Shown piece by piece: positions 37,112 through 43,786 of a stretch of DNA of 64,000 nucleotides. Location of the stretch: contig JAJFIR010000047.1 of NCBI GenBank assembly GCA_021774795.1, positions 1-64,000 of the forward strand. Reading direction: 5' to 3'. The notes under the pieces are model-generated. The model saw nothing but the letters and a program-made list of their open reading frames with translations. It ran no database searches and was not told the DNA's origin. Both the position numbers and the translations under genes were made by a program. Numbering within the stretch: the first letter of the stretch is position 1; each line of letters starts with the position of its first letter. The DNA is from Emcibacteraceae bacterium. GTDB lineage: Bacteria > Pseudomonadota > Alphaproteobacteria > Sphingomonadales > Emcibacteraceae.

Positions 37112-37444
37112 ATTAAAATCAGGTTTGAGCCAAATAAAACGAGTATTCGAATTGATAAAAATGAATTTCAGCGTTTAAAAGACAAGAAATTTTTGTCAGA
37201 ACAGACCCTGTTCCCAGGCGGCAATCACTTGAATTTTACATTAAGATTAGGCGACGAACAGTCATTTGACTTTGTCGAAAATGATATCCAATTCGTTTTA
37301 AAGCGTCGGAAAATTGAAAATCACAAACCCAGTAAAATTGGGCTTATTTTTGACTTCCCAACAGTGAACGATATGACGCATCGGGTCGTTTTTGAAGTCG
37401 ATATTAAGAAATCACCTCTAGGTGGAAAATCCAGAGTTATCTAG
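37112..37444 (+). CDS. small conserved protein after moaA, apparent ATT start
   Basis: About 110 residues if started at ATT 37112. The frame is open through KIRFEPNKTSIRIDKNEF (residues 2-19), and GGAGG (37100-37104) lies 7 bases before the ATT. The first in-frame standard start, TTG 37193, would cut off a well-formed beta-strand start of the type KIR...SIR...L known from a family of small proteins (DUF7009-like, from memory). Central motif LFPGGNHLNFTLRL. Probably co-translated with moaA. Function unknown. Confidence 0.65.
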   Translation: MKIRFEPNKTSIRIDKNEFQRLKDKKFLSEQTLFPGGNHLNFTLRLGDEQSFDFVENDIQFVLKRRKIENHKPSKIGLIFDFPTVNDMTHRVVFEVDIKKSPLGGKSRVI

Positions 37445-37552
37445 AAAATAATTTCCTTTTTATCATATAAAACAATAACTTAATAGTATTTTAAAACCGG
37501 ATAAATTATATTTAATACATCATATTTGCAAATCATTTATTTATGTTATATG

Positions 37553-37567
37553 ATAATGTTACATTAT
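37553..37567. promoter_or_regulatory. operator-like palindrome before the amine oxidase locus
   Basis: ATAATGT and ACATTAT flank a single T, a perfect 15-base dyad in the AT-rich leader 100 bases before the amine oxidase start. The 222-base gap from 37445 holds no gene. Symmetry and spacing suit a regulator dimer, but no regulator gene lies beside it. Confidence 0.3.
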
Positions 37568-37585
37568 ATGTGTAGAAAGTAAATC

Positions 37586-37635
37586 TTGGCTATTTCAATA
37601 TCCTTCACTATATGGAAAACTATTGAAATAGCTAA
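37586..37635 (+). promoter_or_regulatory. leader hairpin before the amine oxidase gene
   Basis: A 15-base-pair stem (37586-37600 with 37621-37635, one G-T pair) encloses a 20-base loop and is followed by AATTTTT (37636-37642), only about 30 bases before the ATG at 37667. It could be an attenuator or a terminator for upstream transcription; its position inside the likely 5' leader favours attenuation or read-through protection. Confidence 0.4.
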
Positions 37636-37666
37636 AATTTTTAAAGCATTATATTAAGGGAAAAAG

Positions 37667-39283
37667 ATGACGAAAATAGACAACCCGCAGCAAACGGAGA
37701 TGACAAAACGATCATTTTTGCAAACTGTCGGTATGGTTGGTGGTACCGCAGCAGTTATGACCGCAATGCGCGGCTGGGATATTGGTTTTGCTTCTGAAAT
37801 GGAGCGCCCTCCCGAGCTTTTATCAGATGGTAAAGGCAAAAAAGTTGTAATTCTTGGTTCAGGACTTGCCGGTATGGTACTTGCCTTTGAAATGAGCAAA
37901 AAGGGATACGACTGTCAGATTATTGAGGCACAGGATTATGCGGGCGGGCGATGCGTATCCGCACGCAAAGGTTCTGTCATTCAAGAGATTGGCGCAGATA
38001 AACAAGTTTGTAATTTTGCAGAGGGAAATTACATAAATTATGGCCCGTGGCGTATTCCAGCAGAGCATAAATCGACAATTTATTATTGTCAGACATTAGG
38101 TGTGCCCCTTGAAGTGATGATCAACAAGTCAAGCAAAGCTTATTATTACGCAGAAAATAAAGAAGGTCCGTTTAAAAATAGAAACATACGCCAGGGCGAT
38201 GTGGAAACCGACTTTAAAGGTTATGAAACGGAATTATTAGCAAAGGTCGCTGATCAGGGCGGGTTAGATCAGTTTGTAAAACCAGAAGATAAAGATAAAC
38301 TTCTTGAACACTTAAAGGCATCCGGCCTAATTGATAAAAAGGAGCTCAACTACCGGGCGAACCGTGCCCGCGGGCATAGTGCTTATCCGGGCGGCGGCAC
38401 GAATTTCGGAAAACTTTCTGATCCCTTTTCAATGGCAGAAGTTTTGTCGGTTCCGGAAGCGAGCCGAAATGAAACAGCCGACCATCCGGCCGTAATGTTT
38501 CAGGCGGTTGGTGGCATGGATCAAATTGCCCAAGGTTTGAGAAAAGCACTGAGCAGAAGAACAATCAGGTACAATTCTGAAGTAACAGACATAATTCAAG
38601 ACAATAATGGTGTTGAAATTACTTATAAAGACACAAAGTCAGGCAAGGTTAGAACTGAAAAAGGTGATTACGTTATTTCGACGATCCCTCTTGGTGTAAT
38701 ATCCAAAATCAATACCAATATGAGCGAAGAGTTTAGAAACTCATTAAAATCGACCCGCGGTACCACAGTTTGTAAGATAGGCATTGAAATGAACCGTCGT
38801 TTTTGGGAACAGGACGATATGATATATGGCGGCGTTTCAAAAACCGACATCCCGGGACACCGTCAAATAAGTTACCCTTCGGGTAATATTTTTGGACATG
38901 CGCATGGTGATACGGGTGTTCTTCTTGGATATTATCCAATCGGCGCGTCGTCAGTGCCAATAAGTAATTTGAGCATTAAAGAGCGAACAGATTTTGCAAT
39001 CGCGTGTGGTGAAAAAATTCATCCAGAAAATTATAAAAAACACTTCACCGGAGAAGCAATGTCGGTCGCATGGCATAAAATGGAATACGCAATGGCAGGA
39101 TGGCAGGCCTGGTCAAGTCGCGGACGAAAAAGGGCCTTTCCGATTATGCAAAAAGGCGACAATCGGATCTTTATTTCTGGTGACGCCGCGTCCCCGGCCC
39201 TTAGTGGCTGGATGGCTGGTGCTATCGAAGGCGCATGGTCTACCCTTGAGGTAATTGACAAGCGGGTTGCACAACAAACCTAA
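37667..39283 (+). CDS. Tat-exported flavin amine oxidase/dehydrogenase
   Basis: A 538-residue FAD enzyme of the monoamine oxidase family. An N-terminal twin-arginine-like signal (T-K14-R15-S-F-L-Q then a hydrophobic stretch) uses the KR variant. The FAD site is VVILGSGLAGM (GSGLAG 64-69) with IIEAQDYAGGR, and the C-terminal part has WQAWSSRGRKR and IFISGDAASPALSGWMAGAIEGA. Export and the cytochrome c gene 95 bases downstream suggest it passes electrons to cytochrome c rather than oxygen, as shown for nicotine oxidoreductase NicA2. The two exported RidA genes beyond suggest the product is an imine. Substrate unknown. Confidence 0.85.
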   Translation: MTKIDNPQQTEMTKRSFLQTVGMVGGTAAVMTAMRGWDIGFASEMERPPELLSDGKGKKVVILGSGLAGMVLAFEMSKKGYDCQIIEAQDYAGGRCVSARKGSVIQEIGADKQVCNFAEGNYINYGPWRIPAEHKSTIYYCQTLGVPLEVMINKSSKAYYYAENKEGPFKNRNIRQGDVETDFKGYETELLAKVADQGGLDQFVKPEDKDKLLEHLKASGLIDKKELNYRANRARGHSAYPGGGTNFGKLSDPFSMAEVLSVPEASRNETADHPAVMFQAVGGMDQIAQGLRKALSRRTIRYNSEVTDIIQDNNGVEITYKDTKSGKVRTEKGDYVISTIPLGVISKINTNMSEEFRNSLKSTRGTTVCKIGIEMNRRFWEQDDMIYGGVSKTDIPGHRQISYPSGNIFGHAHGDTGVLLGYYPIGASSVPISNLSIKERTDFAIACGEKIHPENYKKHFTGEAMSVAWHKMEYAMAGWQAWSSRGRKRAFPIMQKGDNRIFISGDAASPALSGWMAGAIEGAWSTLEVIDKRVAQQT

Positions 39284-39378
39284 TTTTTATAGATTAAAAT
39301 TGAGGACATAAAATCGTCATAAACTTTCAAAATATTCAAAAGTAGTAATGATTAAATACAAAAAAAAGTGTGGTTAAA

Positions 39379-39780
39379 ATGAAAAAAATTACAAAACAGT
39401 TAATCGTCATATGGGGTATAACAGCATTATTCACGTCAGCTTTTGCACAGGATATGGCCGGCGAAGGTGCGACTATTTACGAAGAATTCTGTGAAGCATG
39501 TCACCAACCTAACGGTGAAGGTTTCGAAGATACTTATCCTCCACTAAAGGATAACGAGTTCGTACTTGGTGACAAAGAGGAACTCATATACCTGATGCTC
39601 GAAGGCCGGGCAGGAATGCCTACTTTCATTGCTGATCTTGACGTAGAGCAGCTTACAACTATTGTCAATTATATTAGAAGTAGTTGGGGTAATAAAGCGG
39701 ACGCAATTGAGCAAGCACAAATGGATGAAGCATATGAGTTTATCGCCGAAGAAGATGACGGGTTTGGTGGAGGAAACTAG
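39379..39780 (+). CDS. periplasmic cytochrome c
   Basis: A 133-residue soluble class I cytochrome c from ATG 39379 (a GTG three codons upstream is the alternative; neither has a good ribosome site). Signal peptide with cleavage after AFA/Q (residue 23). Haem motif C38-E-A-C41-H42; the distal Met is likely in GRAGMPTF. The C-terminal tail is acidic (EAYEFIAEEDDGFGGG). It lies between the amine oxidase and the RidA genes on the same strand and is the natural electron acceptor of the oxidase. Confidence 0.88.
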   Translation: MKKITKQLIVIWGITALFTSAFAQDMAGEGATIYEEFCEACHQPNGEGFEDTYPPLKDNEFVLGDKEELIYLMLEGRAGMPTFIADLDVEQLTTIVNYIRSSWGNKADAIEQAQMDEAYEFIAEEDDGFGGGN

Positions 39781-39901
39781 CTCTGATTAATGTTTGCTTT
39801 ACGATAATTCGAGAAATCATTGCTAAAAAAAAAGAATCCATTAATCTAACCACCGAAGGTGCTCTATGAGTACTTGAAGAAAAATTTCAAGGGAGATAAT
39901 C

Positions 39902-40423
39902 ATGTCAAAGCTCACTAAATTTGCTGCTGCACTTATTATCAGTGGAGTTGCAACACTTACTGCTAACGCGCAAATGATCGAAAGATCAAGTAAAGGGTTT
40001 CTTGATCCGGGAATTGCAATCCCTGTAGGAGCTGAGACCTATTATATGAGTGGTAAGGGAAATCATGCATGGGGCGAAGGCTGCATGACACGAGATGAAC
40101 GCGCTGCAAAAGGTGACGAATGCAAACCGGGCGATATGTATGAACAAGGAAAAGCCGTTTTTGCTGCCTTCAAAACTCAACTCGAAGAAGCTGGCTGGTC
40201 ACTTAGCGATGTTGTAATGCTTCGCATTTATGGTGTGCCGGGCGAGGATGGTAAAGTTGATTCTGCCGCTTTCAATAAAGCGTACCGCGAATATTTCGGA
40301 GAAGATTCGACAAGTGGTAACACAAATCTACCGTCACGCACTTTCGTGGGAATCCACTCTCTTGTGGTGCCAGGATGGTTGGTTGAAGTGGAAGCTCGCG
40401 CCATTCGTATGCCTAAACAGTAA
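39902..40423 (+). CDS. exported RidA-family protein, copy 1
   Basis: A 173-residue member of the RidA/YjgF family with a signal peptide (cleavage after ANA/Q, about residue 23), which is uncommon for this normally cytosolic enamine/imine deaminase. The trimer-forming core and the active-site Arg in LPSRTFVGIHSL (near residue 145) are kept, and GWLVEVEARAI is the closing strand. An insertion with two Cys (GCMTRDE, DECKPGD) could form a disulfide. Expected to hydrolyse imines released by the oxidase. 18 bases before the second copy. Confidence 0.88.
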   Translation: MSKLTKFAAALIISGVATLTANAQMIERSSKGFLDPGIAIPVGAETYYMSGKGNHAWGEGCMTRDERAAKGDECKPGDMYEQGKAVFAAFKTQLEEAGWSLSDVVMLRIYGVPGEDGKVDSAAFNKAYREYFGEDSTSGNTNLPSRTFVGIHSLVVPGWLVEVEARAIRMPKQ

Positions 40424-40441
40424 ATTCCAAAGGAGAAAATA

Positions 40442-40954
40442 ATGCCTAAACTAAATAAAATCATCACCGCTATTGCACTTGGCAGCGCAATGGTTCTGGG
40501 AACAGTGTTTTCAGCAGCGGCACAAGACGCCATAAAACGTAACGATGAAGGGCGCATGTTCTATTCAACGATCGAAGTACCAGCACATGCCGATACACTA
40601 TATGTAAGTGGTAAAGGCCCGGGTGCTCTAAACCCGGACGCCCCACGTGCTGAGCGCACATACGGCGATACCGAAACACAAGCACGCAGCACCTTCAACA
40701 GCATTAAAATGGCTATTGAAAAAGCCGGTTGGAGCATCAGCGATGTTGTAATGGCCCGTGTTTATCTTGTCGCTGACCCATCAATGGGCAAAATGGATTT
40801 CTCCGGATTTAATAAAGCATTCCTCGAGTTCTTTGGAACAGAAGATCAACCGAACAAGCCGGTTCGTGCCGTTGTTGAAGTTGCAGGACTTGCTGTTGAC
40901 GGATGGCTTATTGAAGTTGACGTTCGTGCGCAAAGAATGCCGTCCGGAAACTAA
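40442..40954 (+). CDS. exported RidA-family protein, copy 2
   Basis: A 170-residue paralogue of the preceding protein with its own signal peptide (cleavage after AAA/Q, about residue 28). The active-site Arg is in KPVRAVVEVAGL and the last strand is GWLIEVDVRAQRM. It lacks the Cys insertion of copy 1. AAAGGAGA lies 8 bases before its ATG, a strong ribosome site. Two different copies may form a heterotrimer or have different substrates. Followed by a terminator. Confidence 0.88.
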   Translation: MPKLNKIITAIALGSAMVLGTVFSAAAQDAIKRNDEGRMFYSTIEVPAHADTLYVSGKGPGALNPDAPRAERTYGDTETQARSTFNSIKMAIEKAGWSISDVVMARVYLVADPSMGKMDFSGFNKAFLEFFGTEDQPNKPVRAVVEVAGLAVDGWLIEVDVRAQRMPSGN

Positions 40955-40984: not shown

Positions 40985-41017
40985 AAAAAGGCGCCAGTTA
41001 ACTTCAGCGTCTTTTTT
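40985..41017. terminator. bidirectional terminator after the RidA genes
   Basis: AAAAAGGCGC (40985-40994) pairs with GCGTCTTTTT (41007-41016), one G-T pair, 12-base loop, T-runs on both strands. It ends the amine oxidation unit and the convergent VOC lipoprotein gene. Confidence 0.85.
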
Positions 41018-41024
41018 ATTTACT

Positions 41025-42296
41025 TTAGTCTATATTCCACTGGAAAAATTCAATGGTATATCCGCCGGGATCACGAATAAGAAATGCTCTGATCGGCGCA
41101 GCGGTACTGTTATAAATCTCATGTTCAATTTTAATGTTCTTTGCATTTTTAATAGCACCGTACCAACGATCAACTGCTTTTGATACAATGCTGACCATTA
41201 CCGCGCTTTCTTTATTGGGGTGATGAAAGCCGCCGTCGCTGTCCTTAACCACACCGACAAATGCCGTTTCAGTCAGCTTGTAAATTTTCACCCAGACATC
41301 ATCAAACGTTGCTTCCAGTTTGAGATCATTGCCATAAAACGCCACGGCCTTATCAAAATCTTCGACACTATAATAAAGCATGGTAATCTGCTCATCAATT
41401 TTTGGTAAATCCATTGTCCCTGTTAAACTCCTGTCTGTTTGGCCCTTGTCCATTTGCACGGGTAAAGCTGTACAATCATTTTGACTGTCGCCACTGGTAT
41501 TAAAATCAAGAAAGGATGTTGATGCATATGTCGCTATGGTCGGAACATTACCCACGTAATTTGTGTCCATGACGGCGTGCTCCACGGAAACCTGATAAAC
41601 TTCGCCAGGGTTAAACAAATCACTGCTAATAGTCACTTGCTGATCAGCGTATGTTAAATGTTCACCGCCACCGAATGGAACGCCACTATGCGAAATTTTT
41701 TCACCCTTACAATTGCCAACTACGGCGAAAATTAAATCGTCAACAAATCCATTTTCGTCTGGACCACCTTCGTTGAACGGCGTCCACAAAATCACCAGGT
41801 CTTGATCTGGATCGATTAAAGCACCGGATGCATCCAAACCATTTTGACTTAACGTAATAATCGGTGAAGCGGGAATTCGTGTTTTACCATCATCCTTTTG
41901 CGACATAACCACTGGGATATGAAGCGTATTTCCACTGCTTTCTGTGTATTCAAACATATACTCGCCGTTGGGATAAAGCGCGTTCAAGTCTACTTCAGTG
42001 CTATAACGTCCGCCATGGGTTTCTAGAACCGCCGGATGATCAGCGAAATTCATAGTATCAATAGCAGGGTTACTCAACGTCCCATCTATCACATGACCGC
42101 CTTCCTTGACGAATATTTCTGCAAAGAAATGATAATTTATCATTTCCTGGCTTGCATTATCAGTCTGTCTATAGTTGGCTGTTTTGCCAACAACAAGAAA
42201 CTGCGTGTCCTGGCTGTTTATTTCACTTTCCTGTGCGCAAGCTGCAAGTGAAACAAGCGGTATCGTTAATATTGGTGCCAACCAGTTTTTTATCAT
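41025..42296 (-). CDS. lipoprotein with C-terminal glyoxalase/VOC domain
   Basis: A 423-residue protein with a lipoprotein signal (lipobox SLAAC, Cys at about 20). The first 285 residues are beta-rich and I do not recognise them; they include GGHVIDGTL, YSTEVDLNALYPNGEYMFEY and VVGNCKGEK segments resembling extracellular adhesion-type folds. The last 130 residues form a VOC domain: MLYYSVEDFDKAVAFYGNDLKL, then RAFLIRDPGGYTIEFFQW with the metal-type Glu. Role unknown. Divergent from the rhodanese-MtnA operon. Confidence 0.75.
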   Translation of the reverse strand: MIKNWLAPILTIPLVSLAACAQESEINSQDTQFLVVGKTANYRQTDNASQEMINYHFFAEIFVKEGGHVIDGTLSNPAIDTMNFADHPAVLETHGGRYSTEVDLNALYPNGEYMFEYTESSGNTLHIPVVMSQKDDGKTRIPASPIITLSQNGLDASGALIDPDQDLVILWTPFNEGGPDENGFVDDLIFAVVGNCKGEKISHSGVPFGGGEHLTYADQQVTISSDLFNPGEVYQVSVEHAVMDTNYVGNVPTIATYASTSFLDFNTSGDSQNDCTALPVQMDKGQTDRSLTGTMDLPKIDEQITMLYYSVEDFDKAVAFYGNDLKLEATFDDVWVKIYKLTETAFVGVVKDSDGGFHHPNKESAVMVSIVSKAVDRWYGAIKNAKNIKIEHEIYNSTAAPIRAFLIRDPGGYTIEFFQWNID

Positions 42297-42370: not shown

Positions 42371-43786
42371 ATGACAAAAACAACGAAGGAAATGGTCGAA
42401 AGCGCCAACAAGGAAATCAAAACGATCTCAGTTGACGAAGCCAAACTAGCACTAAACGATCCAGGAACGACTTTTGTCGACATTCGCGATATTCGGGAAC
42501 TTCAGGCAGAGGGAACCATACCCGGTGCCTTTCACATGCCACGTGGAATGACAGAATTTTGGGTTGATCCACAAAGCCCCTATTACAAAAAAATCTTTTC
42601 ATCAGGAAACAATTTTGTCCTGTATTGCAAATCGGGCTGGAGAAGCGCGCTTGCCACTAAGGCAGCGCAGGATGTGGGTCTTAAAAATGTCGCCCATATA
42701 GACGGAGGCTATTCTGCATGGGCAGAAACCGGCGGTGCAACAGTTGAAAAATCTCGCGGCAAATCCCCCGCCGCCAAGGAAGGCATATATGAGCTGCTAC
42801 CATTTGTGGTTAATCCAACAAATATTTCTCGCTTTGAAAATGGCAGAGTATTGATCGGAAACAGAAGCAAATATCCGTTCGAGCAATCCTTCGTAACTTG
42901 TAATAATGTTGAAGAAGTTGCGCAGGCAATAAAAGACATGGTGACACAAGGTGCTGGTCCGTGGATGGCCGCTGCAAATGCGTTGAGACTTGTTGCCAGT
43001 AACGGAAGTGATGAACTTAAAAGGGCGAGAGACACACTCGTTGCTACCCGCCCAACCAACACAGCAATGAAACTTCGGCTTGATGATATTTTGGATGCCG
43101 CACATGCCGCTGAAGAGCTCGGAACCAACGTCGATGAAGCGATCACCAATAAAATAGACGCGATCATAAGCACACTTTATGATAACTATGCTTTGCGCGC
43201 CCGGGCCATGGCTGATTTAATTGAAGATGGCGACGGTATTCTAACTATGTGTTTTGCTGAGGCTGGATTTTTGCTCGCCCTTGCTCTGGCAAAAAGGGAT
43301 GGTAAAAATCTCACTGCATATGTTCCCGAAACAAGGCCGTATTTGCAGGGCGCCAAGCTAACCGCGCCAAGCATTCATGAGCTGGGGGTTAAAGTAAACC
43401 TGATCACCGATAACATGCCGGCACACATTATGTCGGAAGGCAATATTCAGAAATATATCACCGCCGCGGACTTAATCACCGTCGATGGGCATGTGTGTAA
43501 TAAAATCGGTACTTACCAGAATGCGATCACCGCCCACGCCCATGATATTCCGTTTTTTGCGTTCGCGTGGGGCCGTGATGATGAAAAACAAGTACGCAGC
43601 GATGTTGAGATTGAAGAACGCGACCCCGCCGAAATAAGGCAGGCACTGGGCACGCCAACCACCATTGACGCCATAGACGCCCGATACCCGACATTCGATA
43701 TCACCCCGCCCAAATATGTGGCGGGCGTGGTTACGGTAAACGGCGTGGTCAGCCCCTACACATTAAAAAATTATAAAAACTGGTAA
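42371..43786 (+). CDS. rhodanese domain fused to MtnA-like sugar-phosphate isomerase
   Basis: A 471-residue fusion. Residues about 15-125 are a rhodanese with active loop C86-K-S-G-W-R91. Residues about 138-471 belong to the eIF2B/MtnA family: RPTNTAMK near 227-234 (RPTAVN in MtnA), the catalytic Cys C294 in GILTMCFAEAG, ETRPYLQGAKLTA near 320-332, ITDNMPA near 345-351, the catalytic Asp D367 and NKIGTY near 377-382. Usual MtnA motifs are altered: THCNAG reads TMCFAEAG and GADRIAxNGD reads AADLITVDGH. It probably isomerises 5-methylthioribose-1-phosphate or a related 5-deoxypentose-1-phosphate; MTA phosphorylase follows 13 bases downstream. Confidence 0.85.
   Translation: MTKTTKEMVESANKEIKTISVDEAKLALNDPGTTFVDIRDIRELQAEGTIPGAFHMPRGMTEFWVDPQSPYYKKIFSSGNNFVLYCKSGWRSALATKAAQDVGLKNVAHIDGGYSAWAETGGATVEKSRGKSPAAKEGIYELLPFVVNPTNISRFENGRVLIGNRSKYPFEQSFVTCNNVEEVAQAIKDMVTQGAGPWMAAANALRLVASNGSDELKRARDTLVATRPTNTAMKLRLDDILDAAHAAEELGTNVDEAITNKIDAIISTLYDNYALRARAMADLIEDGDGILTMCFAEAGFLLALALAKRDGKNLTAYVPETRPYLQGAKLTAPSIHELGVKVNLITDNMPAHIMSEGNIQKYITAADLITVDGHVCNKIGTYQNAITAHAHDIPFFAFAWGRDDEKQVRSDVEIEERDPAEIRQALGTPTTIDAIDARYPTFDITPPKYVAGVVTVNGVVSPYTLKNYKNW

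Follow-up and report, generated by a model that had tools for sequence, protein, structure and literature searches.

We think it rather probable that four adjacent genes of an Emcibacteraceae bacterium form an operon for a periplasmic respiratory L-amino-acid dehydrogenase, in which an exported cytochrome c would re-oxidize the flavoenzyme (AO), and Rid proteins would hydrolyze the imino acids that it produces. The genes lie on contig JAJFIR010000047.1 (GCA_021774795.1), in the window, that is, the whole stretch of 64,000 nucleotides that was analyzed. The original prediction had proposed a periplasmic pathway of amine oxidation and imine hydrolysis with a cytochrome c, and this is still the best reading of the locus, whose neighborhood is strongly conserved. 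The host is a marine bacterium; its genome comprises 3.93 Mb in 58 contigs.

Organization of the Locus

The open reading frames at 37667–40954 are those given by the original prediction, and the Pfam families agree with it, namely, Amino_oxidase in AO, Cytochrome_CBB3/Cytochrom_C in the cytochrome, and Ribonuc_L-PSP in each of the two Rid proteins. The features of the locus are as follows.

37543–37564, plus strand: conserved 22-bp palindrome ATGTTATATGATAATGTTACAT, probable operator/promoter (conservation upstream of AO orthologs)
37581–37640, plus strand: long AT-rich leader hairpin (arms 37581–37600 and 37621–37640, 20 nt, 90% complementary)
37667–39283, plus strand: AO, flavin L-amino acid oxidase/dehydrogenase of the roLAAO branch with a Tat-like leader (KR variant) (PF01593, 4e-44; 2jae, E 4e-76)
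39379–39780, plus strand: exported monoheme cytochrome c (PF13442, 1e-10; PF00034, 3e-9; CxxCH at residues 38–42, likely Met80 ligand)
39902–40423, plus strand: RID1, Rid protein with an export signal, a duplicate specific to the genus, carrying a Cys61/Cys74 insert (PF01042, 2e-12; tree; distribution)
40442–40954, plus strand: RID2, exported Rid3-like predicted imine deaminase (PF01042, 7e-15; PFL1385 (9bkc), E 1e-27; PSPTO3006 (9bka), E 1e-24; Arg142/Glu158 invariant)
40985–41016, plus strand: likely transcription terminator 3' of RID2, a hairpin with a T-run (inverted repeat AAAAAGGCGC/GCGTCTTTTT)

The cytochrome reading frame spans 39370–39780, with the ATG at 39379 being the likelier start. 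The gaps between AO, the cytochrome, RID1, and RID2 are 86, 121, and 18 nt, respectively, and these lengths suggest co-transcription of the four genes. The genes for an L-amino acid oxidase (LAAO), a cytochrome c, and a Rid protein adjoin on one strand, which is the defining arrangement of the lao-cccA-ridA operon type.

Active Site and Predicted Substrate of the Oxidase

According to the PDB comparison, the best solved relative of AO (538 residues) is the LAAO of Rhodococcus opacus (roLAAO), with 35% identity over AO residues 55–537, followed by snake LAAOs. AO and roLAAO have the fold family and the active-site residues in common; no cytochrome or Rid partner is known for the Rhodococcus enzyme. 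On the pairwise alignment, from which the equivalences were counted, residues R129, K370, Y423, W479, and W515 of AO align with R84, the N5 Lys, Y371, W426, and W467 of roLAAO, respectively. In roLAAO, R84 and Y371 are the carboxylate-binding residues. The carboxylate-binding Arg, the N5 Lys, and the last Trp (W515) are present in 88 out of 88 AO homologs, and the position of Y423 is occupied by Tyr or Phe in all 88, while the side-chain-facing position of W479 varies among homologs and paralogs and probably marks the site of specificity differences between the latter. Since AO retains the active-site residues of LAAOs, its substrate is most likely an L-alpha-amino acid.

We consider it improbable that the substrate is narrower or different, e.g., tryptophan for indole-pyruvate/IAA signaling, or N-modified amino acids. 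IAA formation does require the lao cluster in Gluconacetobacter (PMC5053998), and the variation at W479 suggests diverging specificity, but the neighbors of the AO paralogs (see below) suggest general use of peptides and amino acids.

NicA2 of Pseudomonas, to which the original prediction referred as a precedent, turned out not to be close kin of AO, which belongs to the LAAO branch: NicA2 is absent among the 60 PDB matches listed at E ≤ 1e-3, and the best nicotine-type match listed is (S)-6-hydroxynicotine oxidase (7e-5). Membership of AO in the NicA2/Pnao clade is thus rejected by sequence, and NicA2 serves as an analogy for the electron acceptor only, not for the family or substrate.

Export Signals

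All four genes carry export signals, as had been predicted, that of AO being a putative one. In the cytochrome and both Rid proteins, Sec signals are evident by inspection (SAFA/Q, TANA/Q, and SAAA/Q), and all three pass a rule-based signal caller, which fires on 11 out of 51 genes of the window, these Rid proteins included. The AO leader is Tat-like, with TKRSFLQ followed by a hydrophobic stretch, and has K-R instead of R-R. The KR motif is found in 41 out of 42 AOs of the genus, whereas 41 out of 46 AOs from outside the genus have RR; other Tat leaders of the host genome, e.g., those of dipeptidases, also carry RR. The KR variant might lower the export of AO. Both TatC and the heme chaperone CcmE are encoded in the host genome.

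Exported Rid proteins had been regarded as unusual. Across the sampled genomes, 40 out of 44 Rid proteins from such clusters pass the rule-based export-signal test, and hence exported Rid-type proteins beside these oxidases are the rule; only the second one, RID1, is special, being confined to the genus. The group around PSPTO3006 includes a Rid protein that looks cytosolic, and thus export is not universal.

Conservation of the Gene Neighborhood

Conservation of the neighborhood was a check that the original prediction had named beforehand. Within the genus, the cytochrome and RID2 accompany AO in 10 out of 10 sampled genomes with an AO ortholog, and RID1 is also present in seven out of 10; the genus cytochromes were counted from a scan of all reading frames, including the L077 cytochrome and several overlapping AO ends. 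Wherever the contig is long enough, the position is constant, between moaA and the mtnA/mtnP genes. In two genomes, G066 and G746, AO has been lost and the cytochrome–RID2 pair is kept at the same syntenic spot; G066 has two AO paralogs elsewhere in the genome.

Outside the genus, we considered 46 AO loci, which came from samples at the order, class, and phylum levels plus two named contigs. A cytochrome is found in 29 of these loci, a Rid gene in 32, both in 20–22, and a TonB receptor gene in 17, with approximately 0.03 Rid genes per neighborhood expected by chance (nine Rid loci in 3.9 Mb). Twelve out of 46 loci have a Rid gene without a directly adjacent cytochrome, and thus the cytochrome is not obligatory. 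Plasmid-borne AO–cytochrome–RidA examples come from Sulfitobacter indolifex, Microvirga ossetica, and Comamonas odontotermitis, and in Deinococcus radiodurans the cytochrome–AO pair lacks a Rid gene. The electron sink also varies: in Dinoroseobacter shibae the AO–cytochrome pair follows a cytochrome oxidase operon (coxB-ctaD-assembly factor-AO-cytc; Pfam COX1, CtaG), and in three loci AO is directly preceded by a triheme cytochrome; the one of these three compared with PDB is closest to the cytochrome subunit of fructose dehydrogenase. No AO–cytochrome fusion, which would have been proof of electron transfer, was found among the sampled AOs.

The same data bear on another explanation, that AO works in the periplasm as a genuine oxidase of L-amino acids, using O2 and forming H2O2, in nitrogen scavenging or antibacterial action, with the cytochrome being a minor or peroxide-related partner. 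Its nearest solved relatives, roLAAO and the snake LAAOs, are oxidases that use O2, and many AO relatives have no neighboring cytochrome. Furthermore, Tat-signaled flavin amine oxidases (FAOs) without a CytC mostly use O2 (PMC12224317), and LAO1 of Chlamydomonas makes H2O2 (PMC10805672). However, given the adjacent cytochrome in all genus orthologs and in most of the loci outside, the existence of terminal-oxidase and triheme-cytochrome variants, and the retention of the cytochrome after the loss of AO, we hold an O2-dependent oxidase to be unlikely.

The Two Rid Proteins

RID1 and RID2 resemble the imine-hydrolyzing Rid3 subfamily, whose characterized members are their best PDB matches, and retain the catalytic Arg. 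Both catalytic residues, Arg and Glu (R142/E158), are kept in all 46 sampled Rid proteins, and PFL1385 and PSPTO3006 fall within the tree of the cluster Rid proteins. The position of RidA Tyr17 is occupied by Phe in RID2, Leu in RID1, and Ile in the members from outside the genus; PMC4433059 gives Ile at this position for the Rid3 subfamily, reports clustering of Rid genes with those of FAD amine oxidases, and describes the in vivo substrates of Rid3-type proteins as unknown. Hydrolysis of LAAO-made imines in vitro by PFL1385 and PSPTO3006 is reported in PMC5619798.

According to PMC5053998, the periplasmic LAAO complex of Chlamydomonas includes a RidA-like protein as its non-catalytic M-beta subunit, and by analogy the Rid proteins considered here might belong to an oxidase complex as structural or regulatory subunits and not act as imine hydrolases. 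The invariance of the catalytic Arg and Glu over the entire sample and the deaminase activity of the characterized Rid3 proteins (PMC5619798) make such a role very improbable, and we retain imine hydrolysis as the predicted function. At the same time, imino acids hydrolyze spontaneously, and thus a Rid protein may not be needed.

In the tree, RID1 and RID2 form a single clade limited to the genus (support 100/99), and hence RID1 arose by duplication within this lineage. The RID1 stem is long (1.5 changes per column), with little variation afterwards, and the mean identity of RID1 is the highest of the four proteins (88.7%, compared to 79–80% for AO, the cytochrome, and RID2); it also has two invariant cysteines, Cys61 and Cys74, that are missing from RID2. 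Judging from sequences, RID1 shows the pattern of a gene copy with a newly gained, constrained role of its own. We also considered RID1 as a widespread second Rid protein, and rejected this, as among 296 genomes of the order no full-strength matches were found outside the genus.

Oxidase Paralogs and the Proposed Pathway

The host genome encodes five AOs, and its relatives up to eight per genome, often with three to five in tandem; the expanded paralogs have no cytochrome of their own. In the FastTree phylogeny of 88 AOs, the genus clade is sister to AOs mostly carrying both a cytochrome and a Rid gene, which makes the tandem copies without a cytochrome look like duplicates of later origin. 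The tandem array of the host genome adjoins two Tat-signaled M19 dipeptidases, with a PLP-family enzyme further off, and another paralog adjoins a TonB receptor, which fits peptide uptake and cleavage followed by periplasmic oxidation of amino acids.

What the sequences show are the families, the export signals and catalytic residues, the synteny, and the history of duplication; we infer the following substrate and electron flow. The Tat system would export AO as a folded FAD enzyme, which would oxidize the alpha-C–N bond of L-amino acids, yielding 2-imino acids; its FADH2 would be re-oxidized mainly by the exported cytochrome c, which would hand the electrons on to a terminal oxidase. RID2, exported and of the Rid3 type, would hydrolyze the imino acids released in the same compartment, giving 2-oxo acids and ammonia, and for RID1, the diverged copy, we infer that it probably hydrolyzes imino acids as well. 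The cytochrome and RID2 probably serve other AO paralogs of the genome, too. The cytochrome oxidase operon and triheme-cytochrome variants, the natural AO losses, and the dipeptidase neighbors were counted for this operon model.

A wider proposal, possible but doubtful in our view, is that as many as eight L-amino-acid dehydrogenases, exported by Tat and diversified in substrate, share one cytochrome and exported-Rid module, which would turn the periplasm into a compartment of amino-acid respiration. In this proposal, RID1 is a disulfide-stabilized, neofunctionalized Rid protein that evolved once in the genus, possibly serving as a partner in heterotrimers or hydrolyzing one special imine. The loss of AO with the cytochrome and Rid retained makes the sharing of this module testable.

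Candidate Regulatory DNA

The best-conserved feature upstream of AO is the 22-bp palindrome at 37543–37564, which was not mentioned in the original prediction. Besides the window, it occurs in each of the eight orthologs with enough upstream sequence, the weakest being L074 with five mismatches; it has no matches in 566 kb of shuffled sequence, and only one match with at most three mismatches in the whole genome. A Zur/Fur box was considered for this palindrome and rejected due to the mismatch in spacing.

The 15-base leader dyad of the original prediction is real, with longer arms of 20 nt. The predicted RNA fold of this hairpin has an energy of -19.2 kcal/mol (z = -3.4). The hairpin is kept with sequence change in L071, L073, L075, and L077, and is absent in L065, L072, L074, and L078; being lost in four out of nine orthologs and kept in approximately half, it lends no support by its conservation to the suggested attenuator, a function that we do not claim. 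A repeated or mobile element as the source of the dyad was ruled out, since no second copy was found in the host genome.

Comparison With Known Systems

The predicted pathway links two literatures that cite different enzymes, on cytochrome-using flavin amine dehydrogenases of the NicA2 type and on Rid imine hydrolases; in the open-licence literature, we found no paper joining the two for the LAAO branch. It would make a widespread proteobacterial branch annotated as "flavin monoamine oxidase" one of periplasmic, energy-conserving L-amino-acid dehydrogenases with their own imine hydrolase, and points to a likely extracytoplasmic physiological niche for Rid3-type proteins.

In NicA2, Pnao, and their relatives, a Tat-signaled FAO is adjacent to a Sec-exported cytochrome c (PMC9396064, PMC12224317), comparable to AO with its Tat-like KR leader and neighboring cytochrome. 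A Tat signal together with an adjacent CytC is a tested predictor of cytochrome-using FAO dehydrogenases (PMC12224317), and the gene at 39379–39780 encodes such a neighbor with a Sec signal. However, this 2025 rule comes from tests of NicA2-like FAOs rather than of the LAAO branch, and the terms "L-amino acid" and "Rid" are absent from the main text of that paper (PMC12224317). NicA2 and Pnao belong to another branch of the superfamily, act on nicotine-type amines, and are described with no mention of a Rid partner.

The Rid3 subfamily (PFL1385, PSPTO3006) has in common with RID1 and RID2 the sequence, the catalytic Arg, a non-Tyr residue at the position of the RidA Tyr, and the proximity to FAD amine oxidases. 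The two-Cys insert distinguishes RID1 from this subfamily, and export, predicted here for both proteins, is not described for Rid3 in the available parts of PMC5619798 and PMC4433059.

Chlamydomonas pairs an extracellular LAAO, LAO1, with a RidA protein, LAO2 (PMC10805672). The genetic pairing of an extracytoplasmic LAAO with a RidA-type protein is the same as here, but this is a eukaryote with O2/H2O2 chemistry, and a cytochrome is not reported.

The closest known system is the lao-cccA-ridA operon with a Tat-signaled LAAO, published in 2016 for Gluconacetobacter diazotrophicus (GDI2456–2454), with Caulobacter and Xanthomonas named as further carriers (PMC5053998). There, no IAA is formed from Trp once lao is disrupted, and IAA formation in ccm mutants reaches approximately 5% of the normal level; the roles of the cytochrome and Rid are proposed ones (PMC5053998). 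The order of functions is shared with the present locus, the co-expressed Gluconacetobacter genes encoding first a roLAAO-like LAAO, then a cytochrome c, and then a Rid protein; however, that operon has a single Rid gene and no reported tandem expansion of LAAOs, in contrast to the two Rid genes and the paralogs described above. Thus, the novelty originally suggested for the oxidase–cytochrome–Rid set does not extend to its three-gene core, which is a member of an already published operon type with a Chlamydomonas counterpart, and what looks new is the genus-specific RID1 duplicate, the AO losses in two genomes, the expansion of AO paralogs, the conserved upstream palindrome, the proposed shared-module pattern, and the electron-sink variants.

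Genomic Neighborhood and Related Loci

Between moaA and the operon lies a gene (37121–37441) for a short DUF7009-like protein, whose match to that family is weak and under the curated cut-off. The gene at 41025–42296, adjoining the operon genus-wide, encodes an exported conserved protein with a lipoprotein-like leader, for which a Pfam search returned no match. According to Pfam, the product of 42371–43786, whose gene adjoins that of MTA phosphorylase, joins a rhodanese domain to an MtnA-like (IF-2B) domain, and looks like an unusual methionine-salvage fusion.

In the oxidase signal (37667–37780) and throughout its paralogues in the genus (41 of 42 oxidases), KR replaces the twin-arginine Tat motif; this lineage-wide replacement affects one enzyme family, RR being retained in other Tat proteins. 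Tat-signalled L-amino acid oxidase paralogues also stand in tandem in the same genome (G000:C58:53475–58481) and in homologous arrays at loci L079–L082, with three to five copies each (more, partly broken, in L080), no cytochrome of their own, and adjoining Tat-signalled M19 dipeptidases. Another two Rid-like proteins predicted to be exported, one a lipoprotein and one RR-Tat, are encoded at G000:C58:1270–2384 (locus L062), next to a gamma-glutamyltranspeptidase gene and approximately 3 kb from a lipoprotein cytochrome c.

At three sampled loci, a trihaem cytochrome precedes an oxidase of the LAAO branch (L129:6946–8412, L136:7603–9135, L014:4557–5990), and these pairs may form quinone-linked amino acid dehydrogenase complexes. 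The cytochrome is of the fructose/alcohol dehydrogenase type (PDB comparison for one of the three loci).
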